Source of the DNA: Anaerolineaceae bacterium
Lineage (GTDB): Bacteria; Chloroflexota; Anaerolineae; Anaerolineales; UBA11657
Reading direction: 5' to 3'
Length of the DNA: 64,000 nucleotides
Assembly (NCBI GenBank): GCA_003569365.1
Contig: BGOS01000023.1
Location: 124,001-188,000 of the forward strand
The translations under genes and the position numbers were made by a program. Shown here piece by piece: positions 12,252 to 35,329 of this stretch (position 1 is its first letter; every line of letters starts with the position of its first letter). The notes beneath the pieces are model-generated. The model worked only from the letters and a program-made list of their open reading frames with translations, searched no databases and had not been told where the DNA came from.

Positions 12252-13085
12252 ATGGATGACAAAGAAGACAAATACGAAGACGACATTCACTTGTGGGTGG
12301 AGCTGCGCCAAACCAAGGCGGCCGCCATCCGTGACGGGTTGATTGTGCGCTACGTGCCACTGGTGCATTTTGTGCTGGGGCGGCTGGGCTTGGAAGCCGG
12401 GCCGGAATACCAGGATTTGGCCGGGCAAGGGCTGCTGGGCCTGATTGATGCAGTTGACCGCTTTGACCCCACGCGCGGCACTAAGTTCAGTACCTATGGC
12501 ATTCAGCGCATCCGCGGGCAAATCGTTGATGCGCTGCGCACCATGGACCTGCTGTCGCGCCCCGCGCGGCGCCGGGTGCGCGATATTGAGCGCGCCACGC
12601 TGCGCCTGCAAACTGACCTGGGACGGCAGCCCACGCTTGAGGAGCTGGCGGATTACATGAAGCTGAATGTGGCGCAATTGCAGAAGAGCTACGGCGACGC
12701 CAGCCGCGTGCTGATCTCCCTCGATGCGCCCCTGCCCAACGGCGAAAGCCTGTATGACACCCTGCCGGACAACGACCCGGAGGTAAACCCCACCGCAGTG
12801 ATGATGGAATCAGAATTGCATCTGAGTCTGAAGGATGCGCTGCAAACCCTGCCGGATCGCGACCGCCAATTGCTGTCCCTGTACTACGTGGATGAGCTGA
12901 CCATGCGGGATATTGGCGAAGTGCTGGGTGTTTCCGAGTCGCGTGTGAGCCAGATGCATGCCAAGGCGGTAATCGAGCTGCGCGCAACCATGCAGCGCGC
13001 ACAGCAGCGGCCGGCCAGCCCGGTGCGCGCTGCGGCGGCGCCGCCTGTGCCGCAGCGCCGCATTTTGCAAGAGGTTACGGCATGA
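12252..13085 (+). CDS. fliA: Flagellar sigma factor sigma-28 (FliA)
   Basis: FliA/SigD directs RNA polymerase to late flagellar promoters. Region 2 is clear (YVPLVHFVLGRLGL, GLLGLIDAVDRFDPTRGTKFSTYGIQRIRGQIVDALR), followed by region 3 and a region 4 helix-turn-helix (LTMRDIGEVLGVSESRVSQMHAKAVIELR). An AGGAAA ribosome-binding site precedes the ATG. Four matching target promoters are found in the window, and its antagonist FlgM is encoded 3.2 kb downstream. Confidence 0.96.
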   Translation: MDDKEDKYEDDIHLWVELRQTKAAAIRDGLIVRYVPLVHFVLGRLGLEAGPEYQDLAGQGLLGLIDAVDRFDPTRGTKFSTYGIQRIRGQIVDALRTMDLLSRPARRRVRDIERATLRLQTDLGRQPTLEELADYMKLNVAQLQKSYGDASRVLISLDAPLPNGESLYDTLPDNDPEVNPTAVMMESELHLSLKDALQTLPDRDRQLLSLYYVDELTMRDIGEVLGVSESRVSQMHAKAVIELRATMQRAQQRPASPVRAAAAPPVPQRRILQEVTA

Positions 13086-13483
13086 GTGATGCGGTGTCTG
13101 CCAGCGAACTGCTGCGCAACACAACTTATCTGATGTCGCTGGCGCGCCGCGCAGCGCTCACGTCACCGGATGCCGCGGAACGGCAGCGCGCTGTGCAACT
13201 GGGGTCTGTACTGCGTGAGCTAAAGGCGCTTGGCGCAACACCGGCAACCGCGGTGCCGGCGGAAAACATGCGGGCTGGCGAAGGGTTTGGCCGGCTGCTG
13301 GATGCCGCGCGCGGGCGCAGCGAGCCGGCAGCGCAGCGCCCGGCTGGCGACCCATTGGAGCGCACAACGGTGGCGTTGGGCATGGCCCAGGCCGGCGCCC
13401 AACAACTTGATATTGCGAAGGCGCTCGGCATGAGCCGGGGCGAAGTGGATGTGATTTTGAATATTGCGAGGCAACAGACATGA
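13082..13483 (+). CDS. Small protein with SwrB/DUF6115-like C-terminal motif
   Basis: The N-terminal 100 residues are helical and Ala-rich without a recognised domain. The C-terminus QQLDIAKALGMSRGEVDVILNIAR fits the short helix-turn-helix-like pattern (IAK-LGxxxGEVxxILNL) at the end of SwrB and related proteins that follow sigD in Firmicutes. Unlike SwrB it has no membrane helix. It overlaps the fliA stop by 4 bp (ATGA) and the next start by 4 bp, so it is translated with them. Confidence 0.75.
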   Translation: MSDAVSASELLRNTTYLMSLARRAALTSPDAAERQRAVQLGSVLRELKALGATPATAVPAENMRAGEGFGRLLDAARGRSEPAAQRPAGDPLERTTVALGMAQAGAQQLDIAKALGMSRGEVDVILNIARQQT

Positions 13484-14607
13484 AAAACATAAATTTGATT
13501 CGACTGACGGTGCTGACAGCGCTGCTGGCAGCGGTGTTGGGCTACAGTGGAAAAGCGCGGGCCGCAGAAAATGACCAGCTTGTGTTTTTGACCTGTGACC
13601 CGGCGATTTGCAATTTCGGCAGCACTACTGCGGCGGGTACGGCAATTGTGGATCTTGTGGTCGGGTCGGTCAGCCTGCAAGCCAATGGCCTGTCGCCGCT
13701 GACCGCTGAACGCTACGTGGTGTGGCTGAGCAATGCCACCTTCGCAAACTCTGTGTACATCGGGGATTTGCCGGTTGACGGACAGCTGCCACTGGTGACG
13801 GTCGCACTGCCCGGAAAGGACTACACGCTGGTGTTGATTACGGTGGAGGCTAACGGTGCTGTGCCGGCCGCGCCCAGTGCGCGGCGCGCATTGAGCGGGG
13901 CGCTGGCGGGACCTCCGGTGGTTGCTGCTGTGCCGGCAGCCGCGCCAACAGCTGCTGCGGTTGGCAGCTTTGATGCAAATACCGCCGGACCGCAAGATGC
14001 ATTTTTGTCCTACATGCCAGACGTGTGCCCGGAGGGCGTGCAAACCGGTGTGGGCACCGGCCTAGTTAACTTTGGCACCGGCGAGTTCTCCGTGCAGATT
14101 TCCGGCGTGGATCCAGGGGCTGGCCAGAAGCTTTCACTTTGGATGCTTGGACCCAACCTTGAGAATCCTGTTTACATAGCCGACATTCCTGCCGGCGGGC
14201 AGCTGCAGCCGGTGTTTGTGTCGTTGCCGGCCGCCACGTATCGCTACCTGATGATTACATTTGAAGCCGAGGGTGCTGCAATTCCGGCCACGCGCGGACC
14301 GTGCGCACTGTCTGCAATTTTTCCGAACGAGGCTGTGCTCGGCACCGCAGTGGTGGCTGCGCCAGTAGCAGTGGCAGCTCCAGTAGAAGCGCCCACAGAA
14401 GTGCCCACAGAAGTGCCAACGGCTGAGCCTGCAGTGGAAAGCGTGGTTGCGCAAACCAGTGCCGACACCGAACTGCCCGTCAAGCTTCCTGAGACTGGTG
14501 CAATTCTGCCGGACGGCTGGGCGGGCCGGGGCTTCGGCCTGCTGTTGCTTATGCTGGGTGTGGGATTGGGCGGCTCTGCGTTGCGCCGCAAGGTTCGCCG
14601 GTCATGA
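13480..14607 (+). CDS. Secreted LPETG surface protein inside the flagellar operon
   Basis: A Sec signal peptide (residues 1-28, ending ARA-AE) is followed by two copies of a beta-rich domain of about 95 residues (near 30-130 and 170-270). Each has a Cys near its start, a V(G/T)GxxLVxFGTGEF-like strand and a closing YxLxLITxEAxG. A Pro/Thr/Glu/Val linker leads to LPETG (336-340), a hydrophobic helix and an RRKVRRS tail, which is a complete cell-wall sorting signal. The start overlaps the previous gene and the stop overlaps the next rod gene, each by 4 bp, so it is part of the flagellar operon. A sortase is encoded at 33578-34411. I infer a wall-anchored protein connected with the flagellum; its exact role is unknown. 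Confidence 0.88.
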   Translation: MKNINLIRLTVLTALLAAVLGYSGKARAAENDQLVFLTCDPAICNFGSTTAAGTAIVDLVVGSVSLQANGLSPLTAERYVVWLSNATFANSVYIGDLPVDGQLPLVTVALPGKDYTLVLITVEANGAVPAAPSARRALSGALAGPPVVAAVPAAAPTAAAVGSFDANTAGPQDAFLSYMPDVCPEGVQTGVGTGLVNFGTGEFSVQISGVDPGAGQKLSLWMLGPNLENPVYIADIPAGGQLQPVFVSLPAATYRYLMITFEAEGAAIPATRGPCALSAIFPNEAVLGTAVVAAPVAVAAPVEAPTEVPTEVPTAEPAVESVVAQTSADTELPVKLPETGAILPDGWAGRGFGLLLLMLGVGLGGSALRRKVRRS

Positions 14608-15407
14608 CACTCAACCGCGGCATGTACGCCGCTGCCTCTGCCATGAATGCCAACTTGTACCGGCAGGAGCTGCTTTCGCACAACCTGGCCAACATCACCA
14701 CAGCTGGCTTCAAGCAGATCAACACCAGCCTGGATGACTTTGTTAGCCTGAACATCAACAATGTTGAGGGCGGGGCGCAGTCCGCCAGCCCGGGCCAGCA
14801 GGTGGGCAAGGGCGGGTTGGGTGTAATTGCCACCGGGCCCTACACGGATTTTGGCGAGGGATCCTTGCGCGAAACCGAGCAGCCCTTTGACTTCAGCATT
14901 TCCGGCAACGGCTTCTTTGCCGTGCAAACGCCCGATGGCGTGCGCTACACGCGCGACGGCCGCTTCACCCGCGACCTGAACGGCCATTTGGTGACGGCAG
15001 ACGGCTTCCGGGTGCTGGACGAAAAATCGGAAAATGCGATTGTGCCTGTGCCGTACGCGGTCGGCGGCGGCATCGGAGACACAGTGGGCAATGTGACGGT
15101 GACGACTGAAGGGCGCATCATTATCAATGGCAAGCCAGCCGGAATGATCGGCATGTTTGGTTTTGACAACCCAAATGAGGATCTGGTGCGCGACGACAAC
15201 AGCCCGAATCTTTTCATCCAGAATAAAGAGGCAGTGCAGGCCAATGGCCGGCTGCGGCAGGGATATTTGGAAATGGCCAACGTGGACCCGGTGTCCACCT
15301 TTACCGCAATGACCACAACTGCGCGCGCCTATGAAGCTGCGCAGCGCGTATTGCAGATGCAAGACCAGGTGGCTGGTCGCGCTGTCAACGACTTGGGCCG
15401 CGTGTAG
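14604..15407 (+). CDS. flgG: Flagellar rod protein of the FlgF/FlgG family (first copy)
   Basis: This is a hook-basal body protein with the N-terminal rod motif (YRQELLSHNLANITTAGFKQ), a central FDFSISGNGFFAVQTPDGVRYTRDGRFTRDLNGHLV block typical of FlgF/FlgG, and a C-terminal helix (TFTAMTTTARAYEAAQRVLQMQDQVAGRAVNDLGRV). With the next gene it forms a pair like B. subtilis flhO-flhP, the rod components. I cannot decide between FlgF and FlgG from sequence alone. Confidence 0.9.
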   Translation: MTLNRGMYAAASAMNANLYRQELLSHNLANITTAGFKQINTSLDDFVSLNINNVEGGAQSASPGQQVGKGGLGVIATGPYTDFGEGSLRETEQPFDFSISGNGFFAVQTPDGVRYTRDGRFTRDLNGHLVTADGFRVLDEKSENAIVPVPYAVGGGIGDTVGNVTVTTEGRIIINGKPAGMIGMFGFDNPNEDLVRDDNSPNLFIQNKEAVQANGRLRQGYLEMANVDPVSTFTAMTTTARAYEAAQRVLQMQDQVAGRAVNDLGRV

Positions 15408-15441: not shown

Positions 15442-16206
15442 ATGCCATTTACCCCGCATAGCGTTCTGCACACTAACTCCGTGGGCATGATGGCCCGCCA
15501 ATTTGAAATGGATGTGACCGCAGACAATCTGGCAAATCTGAATACGCCCGGCTTTATCGCCTCGCGCGCAAATTTTCAAGAGTACCTTTTTGATAAAGTG
15601 CCTGCCAGCCTGATGAACGGCCCTTACCGCGGATCCGCAGTGCGGCCCAATACCAGCCTCTCCTACACGCTGGGACCAATGGTGCAAAGCGGCAGCCCGA
15701 CAGATCTGGCAATCTTCGGCCCTGGCTTCTTTCGGGTGGAGATGCCGGATGGCACCACCGGCTATACCCGCAATGGCAGCTTTCAACGCGATGCCGAGGG
15801 CAATCTGGTGACGGCCAGTGGGTTGCGGTTGATTTGGGGCGGCAAAATTCCAGCCGAGGCCAAAGATGTGCGCGTTACCGCTGCGGGGTCGGTGGAGGTG
15901 CGCGTGGGCACGGACTGGGAGAACGAGGGGCAGATCTCGATGGCCACTTTTGAAAACAGCAGCGGCATGATCAATGCTGGTGGCAGCACTTACACGGCGG
16001 ATGAGAGCTCCGGGCCGCCCATTATCGGCACACCCAACGCCGAGGGTTTTGGGGCGCTGGTTTCCGGCATGGTGGAGCAATCCGGCGTGAGCCTGCAAAA
16101 CGAGGTGGCGCAGATGATGCTGGCGCAGCGCGCCTACAGTATGTCGCTGCGCTCCCTGCAAACATCGGATGAGATGCTGACGCTTGCAATTCGCATGCGC
16201 GGCTAA
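15442..16206 (+). CDS. flgG: Flagellar rod protein of the FlgF/FlgG family (second copy)
   Basis: A second FlgF/FlgG-type protein follows 34 bp later. It has FEMDVTADNLANLNTPGFIASRANF near the start, DLAIFGPGFFRVEMPDGTTGYTRNGSFQRDAEGNLV in the middle, and the C-terminal VSLQNEVAQMMLAQRAYSMSLRSLQTSDEMLTLAIRMRG. It is more compact than the first copy. It is the last gene before the sigma-28 promoter of the flgM operon. Confidence 0.9.
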   Translation: MPFTPHSVLHTNSVGMMARQFEMDVTADNLANLNTPGFIASRANFQEYLFDKVPASLMNGPYRGSAVRPNTSLSYTLGPMVQSGSPTDLAIFGPGFFRVEMPDGTTGYTRNGSFQRDAEGNLVTASGLRLIWGGKIPAEAKDVRVTAAGSVEVRVGTDWENEGQISMATFENSSGMINAGGSTYTADESSGPPIIGTPNAEGFGALVSGMVEQSGVSLQNEVAQMMLAQRAYSMSLRSLQTSDEMLTLAIRMRG

Positions 16207-16319: not shown

Positions 16320-16625
16320 ATGGATGTAACTCTAAACCCCGCCAATTCCGACCCGCGCATCAACGGCACGCCGTTGGCTGCAGCCGGAACGCAAGCCGTC
16401 ACCGAGGCAACCGCCACCGGCCGGCCGGCAGTTGGGCAGCTGGCTACTGACCAGGCCACGCTGTCTGACCGGGCGCGCACCCTCAGCCGGGCGCGGGCGG
16501 AATTTGATCGCACTGCCGGTGCACAGTCTGACCGCGTTTCGCAGCTGCGCACGCAGGTGCAGAACGGCACCTACCTCGTGGATGACGACGCGCTCGCGCG
16601 CGCGCTGATGCCCGTAGTCAAATGA
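16320..16625 (+). CDS. flgM: Anti-sigma-28 factor FlgM
   Basis: FlgM binds and holds FliA until the hook is finished, then is exported. The protein is 101 residues and disordered at the N-terminus, with the sigma-binding C-terminal pattern (RVSQLRTQVQNGTYLVDDDALARALMPVV) characteristic of the family. An AGGAAA ribosome-binding site lies 6-8 bp before the ATG. It is the first gene after a sigma-28 promoter, giving the usual feedback loop. It overlaps flgN by 4 bp. Confidence 0.92.
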   Translation: MDVTLNPANSDPRINGTPLAAAGTQAVTEATATGRPAVGQLATDQATLSDRARTLSRARAEFDRTAGAQSDRVSQLRTQVQNGTYLVDDDALARALMPVVK

Positions 16626-31238: not shown

Positions 31239-31769
31239 TTAGCCGCGGCCAATCTCAAGCGCCTTCACCGCCATTTGCTTGGCGGAGTTCATCACGGTTA
31301 CGTTGGCTTCGTATGCCCTGGTTGCGGAGAGCATGTCGGTCATCTCGGTCACCAGGTTTACGTTGGGGAAGGTGACGTAGCCCTGTGCATCTGCATCCGG
31401 ATGGCCGGGGTTATACATGCGGGCGCCCGCATCGCTGTCCACTTTTACATCCACCACCTCCACTCCGCCGGAACCAACGGACTGGTTGAACATCTGCGGG
31501 CGGTGTTTTACAAAACTGGGCAGCGTCAGGTCCGGAATGCGGCCAAAGCCGCCGGCGTTTTTGATCACCTTCTGCATCGGGCCGAAGCGCGGCAGGCCGC
31601 CGTTCTCTGAGGCGCGCGATGAAAACACCACGGTTTGTTTTTTGAAGGCGCCGCCTTCGTCGGTGCGCGTGGTCTCCACATTGGCAACATTGTTGGCAAT
31701 GGTGTCAAGTCGCATGCGCTGCGCTGTCAGGGCTGAGGCCGAAGTGCGAAACGTGTTGAATATGTTCAT
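31239..31769 (-). CDS. flgC: Flagellar proximal rod protein FlgC
   Basis: FlgC is a proximal rod subunit. The N-terminus FNTFRTSASALTAQRMRLDTIANNVANVETTRTDEGG and C-terminus YNPGHPDADAQGYVTFPNVNLVTEMTDMLSATRAYEANVTVMNSAKQMAVKALEIGRG are family signatures. At 176 residues it is slightly longer than usual. Its start overlaps the stop of the upstream glycoside hydrolase gene by 4 bp, so the two are translated together. Confidence 0.95.
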   Translation of the reverse strand: MNIFNTFRTSASALTAQRMRLDTIANNVANVETTRTDEGGAFKKQTVVFSSRASENGGLPRFGPMQKVIKNAGGFGRIPDLTLPSFVKHRPQMFNQSVGSGGVEVVDVKVDSDAGARMYNPGHPDADAQGYVTFPNVNLVTEMTDMLSATRAYEANVTVMNSAKQMAVKALEIGRG

Positions 31770-33451
31770 GTCAGTTCCTTAAGCGAAGCAATTAGCGGGC
31801 TGGTGTAATTCTGGCGGATCAAGGCCTGCGATTCCCATGCCGGGTCGCTGCCGCCGGCCGTCTGGTTGGCCAGCACCCATTGCGAGTAGGCAAAGTTGTA
31901 GGGTTCGCGCTGGTCGCGCATGTGGCGCATGGCGGCGGTGATCTGCTGCGCTTGCTGCGCCTCGCTTACATTGGCGCTGGCGGCAATGCCGCCTTCGGTG
32001 CCAATTACGGGCAGGGCGCGGCCGAGCAGCTCGGTGGCCAGCTTGTTGTAGTCATTCGCGCGCAGCAGGCCGCGCTCATCGGTCACCGGGTTGGCACTGT
32101 AGTTGTGCGCAGAGATCCAGGCGCGGTCCAGCACGCCAGCAGCGCCGCGCTTCACAATTTCGCGCAGCGTGGCATCCATAAATTTGGCGTCATCTTGCAC
32201 GCCGGGTGTTTGCGAGTTGGACAGCGCGCCGATGCCCGGGTAGCCGCCGTTTTCCGCCACTGTGCGCGCGGCGGGCAGCCATGCATCCAGGTAGCGGTTT
32301 ACGTTTGGTTCGCGGCCCGCATTTTCCACATTGGTGTTGGGCTCGTTATAGAGCTGAAAGTAATTTACGCCTTGCTCTTTGTAGTGGCGCACCATGGCGC
32401 CGAGGTCGCCTTGGATGGGCTCCATGCCGTTGGTGTAGACGCGCATTACCGGCTCTATGCCGCTGGCCTTAAGCTGGCCCACCAGATAATCATTTTTGCC
32501 GATGTTGCTGTTGTCATTGAGCAGCGTCACCCAGCGCACGTTCATGGCGCGCAGTTCGGGCATCAGGCGGTCCACATCGGCCGGCTTGGTGCTGGTGGTG
32601 GGCACCCAGTGCATGCCCCGGCCGTTGTCCAGCGGCGGGCGCGGATAGGCTGCGAGGGCCAGCGGCCCGGCGGCAGCTGCGGGCATTGCGGGCGTGAGGG
32701 TGCTGATGCTGGCAAGTGCGGCTGCCAGCGGGCTGCCGGTTGCGGCTGTAAGCGCGGTTGCAGCTGCGCCCGGGGCAGCGGGGCGCTGGTAGCGCTCTGC
32801 TGTTGTGGGGCGTGCCACACTTACGCGGCCAACGGCCGGTGCAGCCGGGTCATAGGGATCAGAGCGCGGAACTTCAAGCGGGGTCCCGTTGGCTGGCGCC
32901 AGCTCCGGGCTCCGGTTTGGTGCGATGGGCGCTGTGGCCGGTGCAGCCGTTGCCGGCTGCACAGCCTGTGGCTTGGCTATTGTGAATGTGACCGGGGGCG
33001 CCACCGGCATGTCTTTTGCAGCTGTTGCCGGCGTGGCTGCCGGCGGAATGAAGACCGGCATGAACGGCCACTTGCCCGGTTCTTTGTAGGCACTGGTTGC
33101 CTGGCTGAGCGTGGGGCTGGCAGCGGTCAAGCCGCTCAGCATTTGTTGAATGCCGCCCACCTGGCTGCCGGATTGCCCGCCAGCAAGCGCAGACAGCAGC
33201 ATGGCCGGGTTGGCTGCCATGCCGTCAAGGTTCAAGTTCGTGGGGCTGCTTGCGCCGGTGTTGGCGCCAGACTTGTTTTCGCCCATGGCTTGCATCAGCA
33301 CGCGCAGCAGCGCCAGGTTAAATCCGCCGGTGCTGTTCTGCGGCCCCAGCATGGTGCTGGCGTCGGAGGCTTCGTCGCCAAACAAGCCGGACAGCGTGGT
33401 GCTGTTGGCTGTGGGCAGCGCAGACTGGAGTAGGTTGGGGATTGCCTGCAC
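31766..33451 (-). CDS. Putative clan GH-A glycoside hydrolase at the head of the flagellar operon
   Basis: The C-terminal 290 residues look like a TIM-barrel glycosidase of the GH5/GH39 type: VRWVTLLNDNSNIG, YFQLYNEPNTN with the likely acid/base Glu370 in the Asn-Glu-Pro triad, DRAWISAHNYSANP, and PVIGTEGGIAA with the likely nucleophile Glu486. The first 270 residues are Ala/Pro/Ser/Thr-rich and have no signal peptide, reminiscent of flagellar export substrates. The start is GTG at 33451. It overlaps flgC by 4 bp and is the first gene of the basal-body operon behind a phased-repeat array. I infer a type III exported glycan hydrolase, perhaps for passage through the envelope. The family assignment is moderate. 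Confidence 0.8.
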   Translation of the reverse strand: MQAIPNLLQSALPTANSTTLSGLFGDEASDASTMLGPQNSTGGFNLALLRVLMQAMGENKSGANTGASSPTNLNLDGMAANPAMLLSALAGGQSGSQVGGIQQMLSGLTAASPTLSQATSAYKEPGKWPFMPVFIPPAATPATAAKDMPVAPPVTFTIAKPQAVQPATAAPATAPIAPNRSPELAPANGTPLEVPRSDPYDPAAPAVGRVSVARPTTAERYQRPAAPGAAATALTAATGSPLAAALASISTLTPAMPAAAAGPLALAAYPRPPLDNGRGMHWVPTTSTKPADVDRLMPELRAMNVRWVTLLNDNSNIGKNDYLVGQLKASGIEPVMRVYTNGMEPIQGDLGAMVRHYKEQGVNYFQLYNEPNTNVENAGREPNVNRYLDAWLPAARTVAENGGYPGIGALSNSQTPGVQDDAKFMDATLREIVKRGAAGVLDRAWISAHNYSANPVTDERGLLRANDYNKLATELLGRALPVIGTEGGIAASANVSEAQQAQQITAAMRHMRDQREPYNFAYSQWVLANQTAGGSDPAWESQALIRQNYTSPLIASLKELT

Positions 33452-33577: not shown

Positions 33578-34411
33578 CTAACCCGCGGCGCGCGGATGCG
33601 CCACAACTATCAAGCGATGGCTGTTGGTAAAGAACGGCCAGCAGCTTATCAGCGTCAGGCGGTCATCACGGGTGGGGCGGATGAAACTGGCGTACAGCAG
33701 CTGCTCCGCCGGAGACGAGTACCACATGGGAACAATCAGCCGTTCGGTCACCGCGTATTTGCGCATCGCGCCGTTGGCATAAACATCCAGCTCGTCGCCG
33801 GGCACAAGTTCGTTCAGGTTGCGGAAGACCATGCCTTCAGTATTTTGGTGGCCGGCCAGCACTGTGTTGCCGCCAATCCCAAACCCGGCTGAGGCGGGCA
33901 GCCAGCCGGCCAGCCCGTAGGGAATCTTCCAGTTTCCGTCCGCCGCCGCGGCCGCACTGCCGATGGCCGCATCCAGCCCGATGCGCGGCGCCACAATGCG
34001 CTGCGGCGCAACTTGCACCCGGACTTGGGGCGCTTGCGCCGTGGCGACTGGCACAGGCTTCACACGCGCCAGAAACCCGCCGCGGATGGGAAGGTATTTT
34101 GCGAAGCCGGCACCGCGCCGCAGCTGGGTGCTGGCCGCAGAGCGCAGCGCAGCCGGCAGCGCAAGCGGCGTGCCCGGGTTTGTGTGGCTGGTTAAGTCTG
34201 AGCTGGGCGCCACTGGTGTTGCGCCAAGATTGGAGTTTTGAGCTTTGGCCATTTCTGCCAATACTGTGGCGAGCGGCACTACAACCACATGTTTGGGCAG
34301 CGTGTACGCCACCGAGGCGGTTGGCCCGCCCAGCGTGCAGCCGGCAGCGGCGCAGGCAGCAGCCACACCAAGCAACAGCTGCGCTGGAGCAGCGCGCAAC
34401 CAGCAGCGCAT
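33578..34411 (-). CDS. Sortase in the sigma-28 flaG-fliS operon
   Basis: Sortases cleave LPxTG-type signals and attach proteins to peptidoglycan or each other. The catalytic triad is visible: His188 in TVLAGHQNTEG, Cys257 in LTLISCWP, Arg266 in SHRLIVVAHP. The fold pieces RIVAPRIGLDAAIG and GDELDVYANGAMRKYAV fit class D/E-like sortases. The N-terminus has a hydrophobic signal ending in AAAGC that could be a lipobox. The ATG at 34411 starts 4 bp after the fliS stop, so it is co-transcribed with flaG and fliS from a sigma-28 promoter. The LPETG protein at 13480-14607 is the only candidate substrate in the window. Confidence 0.93.
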   Translation of the reverse strand: MRCWLRAAPAQLLLGVAAACAAAGCTLGGPTASVAYTLPKHVVVVPLATVLAEMAKAQNSNLGATPVAPSSDLTSHTNPGTPLALPAALRSAASTQLRRGAGFAKYLPIRGGFLARVKPVPVATAQAPQVRVQVAPQRIVAPRIGLDAAIGSAAAAADGNWKIPYGLAGWLPASAGFGIGGNTVLAGHQNTEGMVFRNLNELVPGDELDVYANGAMRKYAVTERLIVPMWYSSPAEQLLYASFIRPTRDDRLTLISCWPFFTNSHRLIVVAHPRAAG

Positions 34412-34415
34412 GCGC

Positions 34416-34769
34416 TTACGCGATCGCAGTGACGGCGGGCAGCGCGACCGCCACGCTTTGTTTTTGAAGTTCTGACCAGGTGGAGCGCAGCTCGAGCAGC
34501 ACTTCCGCTGCTGCATCCCAGCGGCCGGAGCGGCACTCGTCGGATGTCCACTGGTAAAGTGCCAGCAACCGGGCGGGCAGGTCGCCCTGCTCAAAATCGA
34601 GGCTCTTGATTAATTCATGAATGGCGCGCGTTGCCGTGGCAAGGTCCTTGCGGCCACAGGCTGAGATTGCGGCATCGTATGTAAGCACAACCAGCTTCAC
34701 GGGATCCGCATTGAGGATGTCGTGTTCGCGGTAGTTGCGCGCCAGCCGAGCGTAGGGGTTGATGGTCAT
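34416..34769 (-). CDS. fliS: Flagellin export chaperone FliS
   Basis: FliS prevents premature flagellin polymerisation. The pattern NPYARLARNYREHDILNADPVKLVVLTYDAAISACGR, LDFEQGDLPARLLALYQW and ECRSGRWDAAAEVLLELRSTWSEL is typical. Length 117 is normal. It follows flaG and precedes the sortase by 4 bp. Confidence 0.93.
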   Translation of the reverse strand: MTINPYARLARNYREHDILNADPVKLVVLTYDAAISACGRKDLATATRAIHELIKSLDFEQGDLPARLLALYQWTSDECRSGRWDAAAEVLLELRSTWSELQKQSVAVALPAVTAIA

Positions 34770-34849: not shown

Positions 34850-35266
34850 CTAAGTAAACAGGTTCAGAAAGTGGTCGTATCCCATTTTGTTAAGTTCGTC
34901 GGGCGGGATGGTGCGCACGACCTCTTTTGTTTCCGGGTCGATCATAGTGATCGTAACGGACCCGTCTTCACGATTAATTTGAAAGCGCAGGCTGGTGCCC
35001 GACTTGGTTTGAAATTCAGGCTGCGGGTCTGCCTTCGGCTTTGATTCTTTGTTGTCGGATTCGGCCAGCTTGCGAGCCGACATCGAAATTTGCCCCTCAT
35101 CTGCCGGTGCCAGCCGGTCTGCCTTTTGGCCTATGGCTGCGCCCGGCAGGGCGCGTTCTGTCTTGGCATCGGCAGCCGTTCCCACCGCGGGCTTTGCCGC
35201 TGCTGGGGCCTGGCTGGCCGGCGCAGTTTGCCCGCCCACAGGTGTAAGTGAATCAGAGGGTGCCAT
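34850..35266 (-). CDS. flaG: FlaG family protein
   Basis: FlaG proteins affect filament length and lie near fliD. The C-terminal block LRFQINREDGSVTITMIDPETKEVVRTIPPDELNKM is the family hallmark. The N-terminal 70 residues are Ala/Lys-rich. It is the first gene of a sigma-28 unit that also carries fliS and the sortase. A GGCGGTGG/CCACCGCC hairpin lies in the 80-bp gap to fliS. Confidence 0.92.
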   Translation of the reverse strand: MAPSDSLTPVGGQTAPASQAPAAAKPAVGTAADAKTERALPGAAIGQKADRLAPADEGQISMSARKLAESDNKESKPKADPQPEFQTKSGTSLRFQINREDGSVTITMIDPETKEVVRTIPPDELNKMGYDHFLNLFT

Positions 35267-35302: not shown

Positions 35303-35329
35303 GTATCGGCGGGGCTGGCCGAAACTTTA
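35303..35329 (-). promoter_or_regulatory. Sigma-28 promoter of flaG-fliS-sortase
   Basis: On the - strand the site reads TAAAGTTT-N11-GCCGATAC: 15 of 16 positions match the FliA consensus. It lies just past the fliD stop codon and about 37 bp before flaG. It puts the sortase under late flagellar control. Confidence 0.88.

Follow-up and report, generated by a model that had tools for sequence, protein, structure and literature searches.

A sortase and an LPXTG protein encoded with the flagellar genes of Chloroflexota suggest a wall-anchored flagellar part

Introduction

Substrates of sortases are exported by the Sec machinery, retained in the membrane by a C-terminal helix, cleaved at an LPXTG motif and then transferred to peptidoglycan. 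Class C pilus sortases, with their pilins, are a described case in which an extra sortase, besides the housekeeping enzyme, is tied to a surface apparatus and an LPXTG protein. Here, we describe two genes from Chloroflexota that are alike in this respect but differ in their layout; enzyme and candidate substrate are encoded in two flagellar operons, rather than in one cluster of their own. By sequence, the solved structure nearest to this sortase is that of SrtE1, a class E enzyme (PDB 5cuw), and the catalytic His, Cys and Arg are the same. However, the sortase scores far under the class cut-off and is encoded in a flagellar filament operon. A further difference is that flagella-linked sortases, as a group, are often predicted lipoproteins. 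To our knowledge, lipoprotein-type sortases would be unusual in themselves.

The P ring (FlgI) of diderm flagella is comparable in terms of place, since we propose that the LPXTG protein sits in the wall around the rod. The two are nonetheless unrelated in sequence, and the LPXTG protein bears a wall-sorting signal. How the rod passes through peptidoglycan without a P ring is, as far as we know, an open question. Another described relative is the RskA_C domain of anti-sigma-K factors (PF10099), which is a remote match to the head domain in one member of the LPXTG protein family. Unlike those factors, the LPXTG protein has no anti-sigma domain; it has a Sec signal at the N-terminus and an LPXTG sorting signal at the C-terminus.

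Flagellar gene sets of the same phylum type are known from Thermomicrobium roseum, which has both genes described below, and from Tepidiforma. The T. roseum genome paper lists the flagellar parts and notes that P and L rings are missing (PMC2615216). For Tepidiforma, a flagellum was shown by cryo-EM and the lack of flgH and flgI was noted; the authors argued that flagella are an ancestral trait of Dehalococcoidia, and perhaps of the phylum (PMC10284905). The word 'sortase' does not occur in the main text of either paper and 'LPXTG' does not occur in that of the T. roseum paper, which was the text searched for this term.

Results

A sortase gene lies in the filament operon

The window, which is the whole stretch of 64,000 nucleotides that was analysed, comes from a 2.6 Mb genome assembly (G000, contig C23, positions 124001-188000) of the Anaerolineae (Chloroflexota). 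It contains a nearly complete flagellar gene set. Genes on the minus strand run in the order fliC-fliC-fliD-flaG-fliS-sortase-GH-flgC-fliE-fliF and onward. The order on the plus strand is flhA-flhF-orf-fliA-DUF6115-LPETG-flgF-flgG-flgM-flgN-flgK-flgL-fliW-csrA. The features of interest are collected in Table 1. A preliminary description of this DNA had drawn attention to the sortase and the LPETG gene; on re-reading, all of its coordinates and gene junctions were correct.

Table 1. Features of the window relevant to the sortase and the LPXTG protein
Feature	Position	Strand	Basis
fliA (sigma-28)	12252..13085	+	sigma-70 regions 2, 3 and 4
DUF6115-like gene, between fliA and the LPXTG gene	13082..13483	+	PF19610, E 8e-4, below the curated cut-off
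LPXTG protein, 375 aa: signal peptide, two related beta domains, linker, LPETG, helix and tail	13480..14607	+	
LPETG sorting motif, residues 336-340	14485..14499	+	
C-terminal hydrophobic helix and basic tail of the sorting signal	14527..14604	+	helix predicted at residues 350-374
flgF-type rod gene, 3' of the LPXTG gene with a 4-bp overlap	14604..15407	+	PF22692, PF06429, PF00460
flgG-type rod gene	15442..16206	+	PF22692, E 6.9e-21
flgM, near the LPXTG gene	16320-16625	+	
Gene for a 561-aa protein, between the sortase gene and flgC	31766-33451	-	weak glycoside-hydrolase (GH5-like) match
Flagella-linked sortase, 277 aa, His/Cys/Arg intact	33578..34411	-	PF04203, alignment to solved sortases, lipobox scan
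fliS, 4 bp upstream of the sortase gene	34416..34769	-	PF02561, E 2.2e-10
flaG, first gene in the sortase operon	34850..35266	-	PF03646, E 5.8e-11
Sigma-28 (FliA) promoter, TAAAGTTT-N11-GCCGATAC, between fliD and flaG, before flaG-fliS-sortase	35303..35329	-	
Run of glycosyltransferase genes, downstream of the flagellin genes	42249-62511	-	

The sortase matches PF04203 with an E-value of 1.6e-22 and scores 80 bits, above the cut-off of 26.6. When aligned with solved sortases, the catalytic His is found in GHQNT, the Cys in TLISC and the Arg in SHRLIV. None of the NCBI class models, that for class C included, reached its own cut-off. The nearest was the class E model (NF033747), with 55.3 bits where 160 are needed. 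The N-terminus is signal-like and, in the lipobox scan, has a borderline lipobox (AAGC). One other sortase is encoded in the genome (G000:C24, 80197). With open reading frames judged by eye, the neighbours of this second gene resemble prfA, prmC and murJ, which is a housekeeping-like setting.

The order fliD-flaG-fliS, upstream of the sortase gene, agrees with Pfam. As first described, the sortase gene begins 4 bp after fliS (34416 is the last base of fliS and 34411 the first of the sortase ATG) and a FliA promoter precedes flaG. The latter, a sequence match, fits at 15 of 16 bases and has one mismatch. Sites of this type, with three mismatches or fewer, occur twice in the 64 kb, compared to an expectation of 0.13. 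The second such site is upstream of a flagellin gene. Note that the window also contains a run of glycosyltransferase genes. The product of one of them, 3577 aa long, combines TPR repeats with several GT4 domains. Possibly, these genes function in flagellin glycosylation.

The LPXTG protein has the features of a sortase substrate

The preliminary description had placed the LPETG gene between sigma-28 and the rod genes, with 4-bp overlaps on both sides. This was borne out; the DUF6115-like gene ends at 13483, flgF starts at 14604, and a single gene, the DUF6115-like one, separates fliA from the LPETG gene. Relatives carry a DUF6115-like gene in the same slot too. The protein has all of the hallmarks of an LPXTG substrate, namely a signal peptide, the LPXTG motif, a hydrophobic helix and a basic tail (RRKVRRS). 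The linker is rich in P, E and V. No Pfam or NCBIfam model matched the protein, and a profile of the LPXTG family found no match among PDB sequences.

The sorting motif is well conserved. When 15 relatives from other genomes were aligned (A1), all of them shared the Leu, Pro, Thr and Gly of LPXTG. Across the family, 50 of 51 sequences have LP.TG or LP.TA near the C-terminus, with residue X variable. In the exception, L228, the motif is LPNTG and the open frame continues into a longer tail. At least one LPXTG protein is encoded elsewhere in the window genome (L029:1438-1944, G000:C9), away from flagellar genes. This is a protein of 168 aa, with LPDTG and an N-terminal hydrophobic helix.

The number of head domains differs; the window protein has two and most relatives have one. 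The structural model of the two-domain window protein was too weak for searching (mean pLDDT 52) and a single-domain relative, L241, was used instead. The predicted structure of L241 is a confident eight-stranded sandwich (residues 31-143), followed by a disordered linker and a C-terminal helix. Foldseek, with this model, returned nothing below an E-value of 1e-3. With a second aligner, the predicted model could be placed on Cu,Zn-superoxide dismutase (SOD) with a Z score of 11.6 and an rmsd of 2.5 over 105 residues, which is consistent with a SOD fold. The family alignment contains no invariant, or nearly invariant, His that could correspond to the metal ligands of Cu,Zn-SOD. One family member scored above the RskA_C cut-off (PF10099, E 2.1e-9) and matched an NCBI anti-sigma model below the cut-off for the latter. 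The N-terminal cytoplasmic domain of anti-sigma factors is absent from the LPXTG protein; the Sec signal leads directly into the beta domain. From these models, we read the protein as a non-enzymatic SOD-like or RskA_C-like head, on a stalk ending in a predicted wall anchor. In one genome of the same genus (G001), a whole FAS1 (fasciclin) domain is inserted before the sorting signal (L026:1501-3003; Pfam E 6e-38).

Both genes are linked to flagellar genes in several classes

The preliminary description had proposed that flagellated monoderm genomes be surveyed for linkage of the two genes to those for the flagellum. The survey was positive; the LPXTG protein and the sortase are tied to flagellar genes across several classes of Chloroflexota. 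Both are in the same slots in the genus of the window (G001 and G002) and in a genome of another family (G025), where the sortase is 41-45% identical. Outside the window's order, the slot between fliA and flgF holds the LPXTG gene in 15 of the 16 flagellated Anaerolineae for which the slot is readable. The LPXTG gene is missing only from G250 and is also present in G546, examined later. In G250, the slot instead encodes a protein whose middle part resembles, by eye, an integrase core-binding domain (L186:132-1010).

When the A1 profile was compared to 400 genomes of the phylum, strong matches were sharply set apart. All 29 strong matches with readable neighbours, the window included, are between fliA and flgF or adjoin one of them. 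One strong match, in G844, is without readable neighbours and has the motif LPSTA. A search of GTDB with alignment A3 yielded five loci, all from Chloroflexi or Anaerolineae MAGs, a result that carries no implication for other phyla. The gene is also found in a cultured organism, T. roseum DSM 5159. Here, it is TRD_RS09470, annotated 'hypothetical protein', and the product ends with LPQTG, a helix and basic residues. A gene for a FliA-family sigma factor is upstream, with one gene between, and there is a 4-bp overlap with a rod gene.

Sortase genes adjoin flagellar genes in at least 35 genomes, a count that leaves out 13 LPXTG-bearing genomes of other classes (unchecked or fragments). Most often, the sortase gene follows fliS, fliD or flaG; in a few cases it is near motA or flgE. 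For LPXTG-bearing Anaerolineae outside the window's order, the sortase gene is directly beside flagellar genes in 14 of 16. In the other two, G344 and G391, the LPXTG gene is present and a flagella-linked sortase was not seen among the three sortases of G344 or the 6 inspected of the 10 in G391. Flagella-linked sortases also occur in G000, G001, G002, G025 and G109, and in 16 genomes elsewhere in the phylum. In T. roseum, the order is fliD-fliS-fliT-sortase, with a 3-bp gap before TRD_RS13845, annotated 'sortase'. One sortase (L278) was dropped from the flagella-linked set, its single flagellar-type neighbour being a sigma factor. The catalytic His, Cys and Arg are kept in all 38 flagella-linked enzymes. 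Sites resembling sigma-28 promoters precede flaG in the sortase-bearing operon of T. roseum (L307:143), fliD in that of G1061 (L248:8091) and fliC in that of G502 (L264:5728). Most other sortase loci have no sigma-28 site with three mismatches or fewer.

Of the 34 flagella-linked sortases, 22 have a strict lipobox after a hydrophobic signal, as do 11 of the 71 other sortases (odds ratio 10, p 9e-7; the statistic ignores kinship and the criterion was tightened following an initial look). By sequence, the flagella-linked enzymes with such a motif would be lipid-anchored. The sortase tree places the flagella-linked enzymes of Anaerolineae in one half and those of other classes in the other. A single, vertically inherited clade of flagella-linked sortases was rejected (11 changes on the tree, AU p 0.0005), although a short domain and some long branches call for care here. 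If the tree holds, different sortases have come to lie beside filament genes, which speaks for a need more than for simple inheritance.

Some members of the phylum have a different sortase, beside motA/motB, fliN/fliO or flgE/flhB (L249:9578-10918 in G1061, L251:15146-16321 in G942, L305:2757 in G893, and L300/L302 in G935 and G858). This suggests a further flagella-linked type. A separate observation concerns G109, which belongs to another family. The flagellar cluster at L107 (G109:C30:700-15457) encodes a FliF almost identical to that of the window genus and a sortase that is 82% identical, and so is either a recent transfer or a mis-binned contig. Chance co-location of the sortase and LPXTG genes with flagellar genes was considered and rejected in view of synteny across the phylum.

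One flagellated clade lacks both genes

The preliminary description had named, as the case that would count against it, relatives with the same flagellar genes but without the pair. Such relatives exist in one clade of the window's order; elsewhere the pair is kept. In this order, FliE is present in 49 of 400 genomes. The LPXTG gene is absent from 22 loci of the order with a readable slot (L159-L181 except L161), where the DUF6115 gene mostly abuts flgF. Similarly, for other flagellates of the order, no sortase was seen around fliD-fliS-flgC. On a FliF tree, the pair-less relatives form one derived clade, accounting for 37 of 61 rows, nested among lineages with both genes. The flagellar clusters of this clade are complete, and both genes are missing where the sequence is readable. 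We conclude that, because complete flagella occur without either gene, the pair is dispensable in the derived clade and not essential to all Chloroflexota flagella.

For genomes in which both states are known, 17 have both genes, 21 have neither, one has the LPXTG gene only and none has the sortase only. The association is significant in a Fisher test that ignores kinship (p 4e-10), and there are only two independent contrasts, both agreeing. Apparently, the sortase and the LPXTG gene were lost together in the derived clade, the genomes of which still have sortases elsewhere. Joint loss fits what is predicted of a working pair, yet is close to a single event. The GH5-like gene between the sortase gene and flgC shows a related pattern. 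All 19 LPXTG-bearing Anaerolineae clusters in the survey have it, compared to 3 of the 22 that lack the LPXTG gene. Since three genomes within the pair-less clade retain it (G011, G019 and G044), its loss there apparently came later. The encoded protein may open the wall for the rod.

FlgI (PF02119), the P-ring protein, was found in none of 60 genomes, that of the window included. A swap, in which genomes without the LPXTG gene would have FlgI, was tried and failed, with FlgI missing from both groups. Hence, the absence of FlgI is weak evidence for a collar, because relatives lacking the LPXTG gene are also without FlgI. By the same reasoning, a collar is not needed in the pair-less clade of 37 rows.

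Discussion

The preliminary description held that co-expression of an anchoring enzyme and its substrate suggests a dedicated anchored structure, such as a bushing in place of P/L rings or a sheath around the basal body. The core of this idea is strongly supported by flagellar linkage in several classes; the pair is not universal. On the evidence of sequence, the genes suggest an undescribed wall-anchored flagellar part in bacteria without the usual P ring. The LPXTG protein is likely a wall-anchored protein dedicated to the flagellum. We more tentatively propose a collar or bearing, for which the chances are somewhat less than even. We prefer this reading in view of the coupling between the substrate and the distal rod genes, and of the lack of FlgI in all 60 genomes.

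We envisage that the LPXTG protein would be produced from the basal-body operon, exported by Sec and kept in the membrane by the C-terminal helix before cleavage. The sigma-28 filament operon would supply the sortase, often predicted to be lipid-anchored. This enzyme would cut at LPXTG and link the protein covalently to peptidoglycan, so that the beta-sandwich head, on a flexible linker, would then lie in or on the wall. Most likely, the protein would encircle the rod or hook base and form a collar or bearing in the wall, FlgI being absent from the phylum. From gene linkage, we infer that the flagellar sortase, and not the second sortase, acts on the LPXTG protein. Judging by operon position, expression of the substrate would go with that of the rod genes, and expression of the enzyme with that of the filament genes. 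Both the covalent link to the wall and the location of the protein are predictions, and a bushing or sheath would be a plausible role. Taken whole, the statement that these genes are an ancestral accessory flagellar module of Chloroflexota, collar included, falls somewhat short of even likelihood. The most specific version is possible but doubtful. It holds that a covalent LPXTG ring or collar, built by a lipid-anchored flagellar sortase, is ancestral to this monoderm phylum, takes over the function of the P ring and was lost, with its enzyme, in one clade.

The main rival to a collar is a surface or adhesive role. The LPXTG protein would then be a wall-anchored factor outside the basal body, co-regulated with motility (an adhesin, or a protein contacting the filament or S-layer), that the sortase anchors when cells are motile. 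The position of the sortase in the filament, or late, operon fits this reading. So do the varying number of head domains and the copy in G001 with FAS1, a domain known from adhesion proteins. Such a role is nonetheless rather unlikely; in every lineage the genes to which the LPXTG gene is coupled are those of the distal rod, flgF-flgG, and not those of the filament, and no strong match lies outside the fliA-flgF slot.

It is also conceivable, if improbable, that a housekeeping sortase handles the substrate. The flagella-linked sortase would then act elsewhere or stay in place by inherited gene order. Enzymes that could serve are available, with at least one sortase, and usually several, in every genome tested. 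The window genome encodes a further LPXTG protein as well as a second sortase. G344 carries the LPXTG gene, yet its three sortases all lie away from flagellar genes. In addition, residue X of the motif varies. However, flagella-linked sortases of more than one lineage, in varied positions (after fliS, fliD, flaG or fliT), are still with filament genes. Moreover, the pair is missing together in the derived clade though sortases remain there.

We consider it very unlikely that the protein belongs to an anti-sigma or sensing system, as a derived extracytoplasmic component whose RskA_C-type domain the sortase would release or anchor to provide a checkpoint in assembly. The one family member above the RskA_C cut-off, the sub-threshold NCBI anti-sigma match and the position of the LPXTG gene after fliA all suit this explanation. 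The Sec signal at the start, and absence of the cytoplasmic anti-sigma domain, do not. Furthermore, FlgM, the known anti-sigma factor of FliA, is already encoded nearby. Least probable is that the two genes are ordinary neighbours, without flagellar function, carried in a conserved cluster; syntenic flagellar clusters do let neighbours persist, and a flagellated clade lacks both genes, but slot, motif and triad are conserved across several classes and, by our own estimate (about 3 sortases, 4 Mb and a flagellar set of about 60 kb), chance would give about 0.05 cases per genome, against at least 35 genomes with linkage.

Our search of the open literature, with subscription papers and supplements outside its scope, found no prior report of a sortase-anchored flagellar protein in Chloroflexota or other monoderms. 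Novelty is thus provisional. As far as we know, a wall-anchored flagellar protein of the kind proposed would be the first sortase-anchored component of a flagellum. A flagellar gene found phylum-wide, with a wall-sorting signal and a sortase in the filament operon, is a concrete candidate that is testable in cultured Chloroflexota.
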